NCBI GenBank assembly: GCA_001798885.1 | Contig: MGQW01000015.1 | Coordinates: forward strand, 253-64,252 | Source of the DNA: Deltaproteobacteria bacterium RBG_16_64_85 | GTDB taxonomy: Bacteria; Desulfobacterota; Deferrimicrobia; Deferrimicrobiales; Deferrimicrobiaceae | Length of the DNA stretch: 64,000 bases | Reading direction: 5' to 3' | Shown here: positions 34,980 through 37,485 of the stretch, piece after piece | Layout of the letters: each line of letters begins with the position of its first letter | Numbering within the stretch: position 1 is the first letter of the stretch | Program-made: the position numbers and the translations under genes | The notes under the pieces: model-generated | Databases searched by the model: none | The model's input: the letters and a program-made list of their open reading frames with translations, nothing else | What the model was told of the DNA's origin: nothing

Positions 34980-35756
34980 TCAGGGCCCCGGCGCCAGGTT
35001 CCTCTCGTATATAATACGCAGTCCGTCGAGAGTCAAATTTTCATCAATTACGTGGACTTTGGAAGACTCCGAGGCGATCGTCCGCGCCAGCCCTCCCGTG
35101 GCAATGACGAGAGGGTCCAGGCGGAGCTCCCTCTTCATGCGTTCGATGATCCCCTCCACGAGCGCGACGTAGCCGAAGAAGATGCCCGATTGCATCGCGG
35201 CCACGGTGTTCTTCCCGATGACCGTCGGCGGTTTTACGATTTCCACCCGCGGCAGCTTCGAGGCCTGGAGGAAAAGGGCTTCGGCGGAGATGTTCGCTCC
35301 CGGGGCGATGATCCCGCCCATGTAGTCGCCGGTTTCCGAAACGTAGTCGAACGTCGTCGCCGTGCCGAAGTCGACGACGATGCAGGCTTTCTTGTGCCGG
35401 GAAAAGGCTGCCACGGCGTTGACGACCCGGTCGGCGCCGACCTCCTTGGGGTTGTCCATCTTGATCGAAATGCCGGTCTTGACGCCGGGGCCGACGACCA
35501 GGGGAGCGATACCGAAGTAGCGCACGCAGAGATCGACGATCGTCGGGGTGAGCGGGGGGACGACGGAGGCGATGGCGATCGCGTGGATCTCGCGGGAGGA
35601 GAAGTGGCTGCCGTCGTACAGGTTCCGGATGAGGATCCCGTACTCGTCGCTTGTTTTTTCCCGGTCCGTCCAGACGCGCCAGTGGTGGACGAGCTTCTCT
35701 CCCTCGTAAACTCCCAGGACCGTGTGCGTGTTCCCGACGTCAATGACGAGAAGCAA
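34980..35756 (-). CDS. coaX: Type III pantothenate kinase
   Basis: CoaX catalyses the first step of CoA synthesis, ATP-dependent phosphorylation of pantothenate. The 258-residue ASKHA-fold protein has the N-terminal phosphate motif [14 protein letters not shown] (residues 6-19), [11 protein letters not shown] near residue 105, [11 protein letters not shown] near residue 128 and [16 protein letters not shown]. It lies 6 bp downstream of birA, the frequent partner of coaX in many bacteria. Confidence 0.94.
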
Positions 35757-36827: not shown

Positions 36828-37409
36828 CTACAGGGGGATCGCGGAATAGGGGTCGGCGCGGCGCGCCCATTCGCTTTGCGGATATGTCGCCTTCAGGGTT
36901 TCGTACGCCCGGCGCAGCTCCTTCGGGTCGTGCGTGTGCTTGTATCCGGCCACCCCCAGGAGGAAAACGGCTTCCGGGGTCGCCCCCGCGTTCGGGTGCC
37001 GGTCGATGACGGTCTGGAACTGTGCCATCGCCTCCGCCATCCGGTCGGTGTCGAAGAGGATCTTCCCCATCCCGAGCCCGAGGTGGGCGAGGAGGTCATC
37101 GGAAGGCACATACCCCACGAACCGGTGGTGCTCCTTGCCCCCGGAATCGTGGACGAGGAATGTGGGGGTCCACTTGATCCCGAACCGCTCCATCAACCCG
37201 GTCGGCTTTTCCCAGATACACAGGCTTCTCAGGGGAATGAACTGTTCTTCGAGGAACTTCCGGACCTTCTCGTCGGAATACGGACCCGTATTCATCCTGG
37301 CGCAGCCGATTCAGCCATCGAACCAGAAGTCCTGGAACACGGGCTTGCCGCTCTTGCGCGCCTTCTCGAGCGCGGCGTCGAATTCGGTCTCCCACCGGAT
37401 CTCGGCCAT
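36828..37409 (-). CDS. Thioredoxin-fold selenoprotein (Sec at residue 33, UxxC)
   Basis: Translation from ATG 37409, behind a near-ideal GGGAGGG, gives MAEIRWETEFDAALEKARKS, then KPVFQDFWFDG, an in-frame TGA at 37313-37311, and IGCARMNTGPYSDEKVRKF. The TGA falls where the first redox cysteine of a thioredoxin-like CxxC is expected, giving U-I-G-C with Cys36. A perfect hairpin with GGUC at its tip begins 18 nt after the TGA, matching bacterial SECIS geometry. The frame continues for 160 codons: a thioredoxin fold with the cis-proline motif IKWTPTFLVHD, then a TPR-like helical tail. Total 193 residues. A frameshift-free restart at Met39 would lose the active site, so Sec readthrough is the best reading; a plain nonsense mutation is the alternative. 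Confidence 0.8.
37276..37293 (-). promoter_or_regulatory. SECIS-like hairpin after the Sec TGA codon
   Basis: On the coding strand GAATACGG-GT-CCGTATTC is a perfect 8-bp stem, or a 6-bp stem with a GGGUCC loop. The GGUC at its tip is as in the E. coli formate dehydrogenase SECIS. The tip lies about 25-28 nt downstream of the TGA at 37313-37311, within the 16-37 nt range known for SelB-dependent bacterial SECIS elements. Confidence 0.7.
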
Positions 37410-37485
37410 CGTCGCCCTCCCTTTCGAACCGAAGGTTCACCGCAAATCCGCCAAGTAAGATGCGGAAAGGCGCCGGGGGTTTGTT

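Follow-up and report, generated by a model that had tools for sequence, protein, structure and literature searches.

The 'Thiol:disulfide interchange protein' (WP_011366075.1) is the PF13098/UxxC entry of a catalogue of 119 families published in 2026 (PMC13188914, Table 1); three sequences stood under this name in the list of 2006, which gave it for G. metallireducens, G. uraniireducens and Syntrophus aciditrophicus and listed a separate Sec thioredoxin for both Geobacter species (PMC1794560). No Trx-TPR family is named among the 119 families (PMC13188914), neither a TPR tail nor a Sec/Cys history appears in the descriptions of these two sources (PMC13188914, PMC1794560), and a literature search for a Trx-TPR selenoprotein returned nothing relevant.

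The protein described here, encoded in a window of 64,000 nucleotides (the whole stretch of DNA that was analysed), resembles the 'Thiol:disulfide interchange protein' in its PF13098 match above the cut-off, the UxxC motif and the Geobacter-type distribution; the TPR tail and the Sec/Cys history are noted only for the present family. With DsbD-gamma/Thioredoxin_7, which is among the closest solved structures, the Trx fold is common; the protein differs from DsbD in having no membrane part and no signal peptide evident on inspection of the N-terminus, and in its predicted Sec and TPR tail. The order of N-terminal Trx and C-terminal TPR parts is shared with CnoX/YbbN, but the TPR part is shorter, the motif is UIGC and not WCGPC/SxxC, and the superposition is weak (PMC6282202). 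The WUPHC Sec thioredoxin of Geobacter likewise has a Trx fold and UxxC; it is a separate gene of the same genome (L262) and has no TPR.

The features of the locus are collected in Table 1. The 193-codon frame is interrupted once, by the TGA of codon 33, and the active site reads ...DFWFDG-U-I-G-C-ARM...; the in-frame TGA, the I-G-C and the 157 residues after it, which the initial annotation had pointed out, were confirmed, and so was the ribosome-binding site ahead of the ATG, the site and the ATG both being conserved in relatives.

Table 1: Predicted selenoprotein gene, its elements and its neighbours in the window.
Feature	Positions	Strand	Remarks
Predicted selenoprotein gene, 193 aa	36828..37409	minus	ATG 37409, TAG 36830-36828
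In-frame TGA, codon 33, predicted Sec of U-x-G-C	37311..37313	minus	conserved column in relatives
TGC codon 36, putative resolving Cys of U-I-G-C	37302..37304	minus	Cys at +3 in 96/96 Sec (TGA) forms
Putative bSECIS hairpin GAAUACG-GGUC-CGUAUUC	37276..37293	minus	loop 37286-37283
Shine-Dalgarno GGAGGG	37415..37420	minus	purine-rich GGAGG likewise placed in most relatives
Upstream gene, methylmalonyl-CoA mutase-like, 563 aa	37486..39177	minus	stop = TGA; neighbour conserved within family
Downstream gene, BirA-like, 325 aa	35763..36740	minus	neighbour in most same-family relatives
CoaX-like gene, beyond BirA-like gene	34980-35756		neighbour in most same-family relatives

The search for relatives covered closely related genomes, two orders of the phylum and, from the phylum at large, 395 genomes; the loci retrieved yielded 118 distinct members of full length, all of the same phylum, to which the column counts refer. 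The column of residue 33 holds TGA in 96 members, Cys in 20 and neither in 2; Cys at this column had been expected from alignment with homologues. The active-site motifs were UIGC (77), ULGC (14), CIGC (10) and a few others; no second TGA was found in the aligned frame of any of the 118 members, and the nearest named records, the Deltaproteobacteria bacterium CSP1-8 and the isolate CSMAG_819, carry TGA at the same place. Since the TGA is conserved at this column in 96/118 distinct relatives, a sequencing error or a pseudogene is excluded; a TGC or TGT misread as TGA is contradicted by its retention in independent assemblies. A TAG in one relative (G141), considered as a second recoded codon, sits at the extreme C-terminus and is the stop.

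The hairpin with GGUC at its tip, proposed earlier to lie at the distance of a bacterial SECIS, was borne out: a perfect stem of 7 bp begins 17 nt after the UGA, the UGA-to-loop distance is 24 nt, and covariation supports it. The published bSECIS definition asks for a loop of 3–9 nt, a stem of 4–16 bp, a distance of 16–37 nt from the UGA, an MFE ≤ −7.5 and a G within the first two loop positions (PMC13188914); the hairpin was counted as conforming, with its 4-nt loop, 7 bp, 24 nt and an MFE of −9.8 kcal/mol for the 44-nt stretch (−7.0 kcal/mol for the bare hairpin). Folding energy was discarded as evidence for a SECIS, the z-scores being uninformative (hairpin by itself −1.2, 44-nt stretch +0.6, 71-nt stretch +1.6), and an Rfam search of the window gave no match.

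A comparison of 62 distinct Sec sequences shows G as the opening base of the loop in 62/62, with U or G after it; the six outer pairs are formed in 94.6% of cells, a fraction attained by none of 2000 shuffles, and 25 two-sided compensatory changes were counted against a shuffle maximum of 14. The shuffles leave relatedness in, and registers slid by 1–3 bases (21–65% paired) and the Cys forms served as further controls. Further pair types were marginal (8 against a shuffle mean of 6.3; 54/2000 shuffles attain 8). In the Cys forms 5, 4 or 2 of the 7 hairpin pairs are formed, with degraded stems in a Cys genus, e.g., GGAAGAG-GTCA-CCTTCGC. Between close relatives the SECIS segment changes at 0.065/0.019/0.083 for codon positions 1/2/3; in ten close relatives, 8/9 of the amino-acid-invariant codons from +2 to about +12 are held to a single codon versus 9/60 elsewhere (gene-wide 17/69, 8 of them in the SECIS stretch). 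As judged from the alignment, the conservation and covariation of the putative SECIS are far beyond chance, and the predicted hairpin decays in Cys forms. By eye, a subset with GGACGCG-GTCG-CGTACCC pairs more poorly when set in this register; a shifted register may apply there.

The host MAG (2.2 Mb, 96 contigs, 99% complete) contains a selA match of 570 bits, over the cut-off, a tRNA-Sec with anticodon TCA (UCA), and selB, found by profile search with 295 bits in its best stretch and 323.6 bits together with in-frame neighbours (cut-off 242). For selD a fragment at a contig start was found (G000:C32:6-467; L050, L053), a two-piece match below the curated cut-off, presumably because it is incomplete at the contig edge. 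The sel genes whose presence in the genome had been proposed as a check are thus over their cut-offs for selA, selB and tRNA-Sec, with selD as a contig-edge fragment below it. Of 39 TGA-carrying genomes tested, 37 have selB over the cut-off; the two TGA forms without a selB match (G003, G301) come from fragmented MAGs, ca. 92% complete. With sel genes present, Sec or Cys at column 33 and a genuine TGA, the three points on which the initial annotation had staked its proposal, the reading as a thioredoxin-fold selenoprotein with a UIGC active site is strongly supported.

Ordinary ORF calling returns only the product from Met39 (36828-37295, 155 aa), as had been foreseen for automatic annotation, with loss of the active site. 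This frame is what favours a protein that truly starts at Met39, the TGA being the ordinary stop of an upstream remnant; such a start would cost both redox residues, the Shine-Dalgarno sequence and ATG of the longer frame are conserved, and so are W6, D27, F28 and column 33. Moreover, between close relatives codon positions 1/2/3 change at 0.16/0.20/0.40 upstream of the TGA and at 0.17/0.13/0.39 downstream of it; judged by these rates, the pattern before the TGA is of the coding type, like the downstream part, and a start at Met39 is exceedingly improbable. Reassignment of TGA in the host genome, e.g., to Trp, has nothing specific in its favour and practically negligible probability: TGA is the stop of the adjoining mutase gene, also in close relatives, the relatives show Cys and never Trp at column 33, and tRNA-Sec(UCA) is present in the host. 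Insertion of Sec at UGA33 is, on these data, almost certain.

On the tree the Sec state changed at least four times, and Cys forms occur in four separate places, namely a Geobacteraceae group, family f59, and the genomes G009 and G040 (G040 and locus L121 are long branches of unsure tree position). The Cys-form Geobacteraceae group presumably includes Citrifermentans bemidjiense. The C-I-G-C homologues that the initial annotation named among Geobacter-type thioredoxin-fold proteins were found, with exactly this motif, in relatives which we take to be Geobacter. The TGC form of G009 goes with a best selB-model match of 186 bits, EF-Tu-like and under the cut-off, and its congener G014 has the TGA form and selB of 327 bits. 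Cys forms also stand alongside selB in G040 and several f59 members; therefore loss of selB is not the sole route to Cys.

Some f59 relatives, L085, L086 and L091 among them, have CxGS or no active-site redox residue and keep the remaining sequence and the tail; here the redox function has apparently been lost and the scaffold retained. In one locus, L229 (G578:C9), the match is split and TGA occurs twice, the frame being seemingly disrupted near the C-terminus, perhaps through an assembly error. In other orders, L152, L153, L154, L172, L179, L180 and L181 show the subtype of the window (DFWF..U[IL]GC..MNTGPYS) with a near-identical hairpin (L152 differs by one base) and group with the family of the window in a single supported clade; either horizontal transfer or an old duplication would account for them.

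Residues 17-110 match Pfam Thioredoxin_2 (PF13098) with 45.7 bits (cut-off 27). The AlphaFold2 model (17-sequence alignment; pLDDT 96.6, pTM 0.91) has a Trx domain at about residues 1-110, followed by TPR-like helices 103-190; the thioredoxin fold that had been proposed is borne out by both. Residue 33, modelled as Cys, lies directly before helix 34-41, and the alignment shows W6, D27, F28, residue 33, G35, C36, M39 and W80-T81-P82 as invariant. The TPR-like C-terminal tail was absent from the first account; TPR matches in this part fall below the Pfam cut-offs and the helical tail comes from the model. By sequence and Foldseek, the nearest solved structures are DsbD-gamma and other Trx proteins, with YbbN among the Trx-TPR proteins.

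In the proposed mechanism, UGA33 would, on comparative evidence, be read as selenocysteine by SelB and tRNA-Sec, guided by the hairpin downstream, to give a cytosolic selenoprotein of 193 residues. Its Thioredoxin_2/DsbD-gamma-like Trx domain would present U33-x-G-C36 at the start of the active-site helix together with a cis-Pro-type motif, W80-T81-P82. Sec33 would attack disulfides or other oxidised sulfur of partner proteins, Cys36 would resolve the selenenyl-sulfide and the TPR tail would dock the partner; that is, a dithiol-type Sec/Cys reductase with TPR-based partner binding is suggested. The gene neighbourhood gave no substrate clue, mutase, BirA and CoaX pointing to none; the order mutase-gene-birA-coaX is conserved only in the window's own family, and the neighbours differ in the other loci examined. 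The best overall explanation, and a likely one, is a cytosolic Sec Trx-TPR reductase, probably of the catalogued PF13098 UxxC family.

A selenium-dependent chaperedoxin of the CnoX/YbbN type, acting mainly as a holdase with its Trx domain shielding clients, would share the Trx + TPR architecture, and the YbbN structures 3qdn and 3qou are among the best Foldseek matches. The superposition reaches a TM-score of only 0.40-0.42 at 12 Å rmsd (0.29 on target length) and does not extend over the full length, the protein has 193 versus ca. 285 residues, and neither WCGPC nor the gamma-proteobacterial SxxC is present; this function is quite improbable.

In genome G579, which we take to be Geobacter uraniireducens, the sole TGA gene above the PF13098 cut-off belongs to the present family (30 bits); the other TGA match (L262; 21 bits, below the cut-off) is the WUPHC thioredoxin, with a Zn-ribbon-like N-terminus. 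Two such matches being found, one of them a Sec thioredoxin, the present family is probably the catalogued 'Thiol:disulfide interchange protein', by elimination and on the assumed genome identity, with WP_011366075.1 known by description. The same pair of genes stands against a genuine selenoprotein of an uncatalogued family, in which case the catalogue entry would be a different PF13098 protein. In its favour are the comparison of WP_011366075.1 by description and not by sequence, the lack of a Trx-TPR name among the 119 families (PMC13188914), the other TGA Thioredoxin_2 proteins of the phylum (L144 and L146, UPHC; L145, UTFC), and NCBIfam release 20, no model of which exceeds its cut-off for the window protein: DsbD gives 38.6 bits against 330, matching the last ca. 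110 model positions, TsoB 36.6/805, VPGUxxT 27.2/275 and Trx7/PDZ 20/300 bits. An uncatalogued family is nevertheless rather doubtful; that it would moreover be a phylum-wide selenium-based Trx-TPR reductase or chaperedoxin, with Sec dominant and probably ancestral (96 vs 20), is unlikely. Nearly every detail of the initial annotation proved correct. Of its 'new selenoprotein', the selenoprotein stood, without an NCBIfam model, and the newness became doubtful, the protein probably belonging to the PF13098 UxxC family already listed.

Other in-frame TGA codons were encountered in Thioredoxin_2 proteins. L144 (G348) and L146 (G365), both on the minus strand, encode single-domain proteins with EFYMEGUPHC and EIYLEGUPHC, respectively, possibly another selenoprotein family; the related L147, L148 and L149 have Cys in place of the TGA. 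L145:141-452 (G104) encodes an apparently secreted protein with a UTFC motif (FHADWUTFCKKM).

Wherever genes of the present family are called from Met39 they are mis-annotated and the active site is lost. The lineage of the window is known from metagenome assemblies; the selenoprotein is well supported there, and its family has so far been poorly described. The family offers a natural series of Sec/Cys exchange, in which tree changes are accompanied by SECIS decay and one genome is without detectable selB, and, being widespread within a single phylum, it is a tractable target for asking what advantage Sec gives to a Trx-fold reductase.
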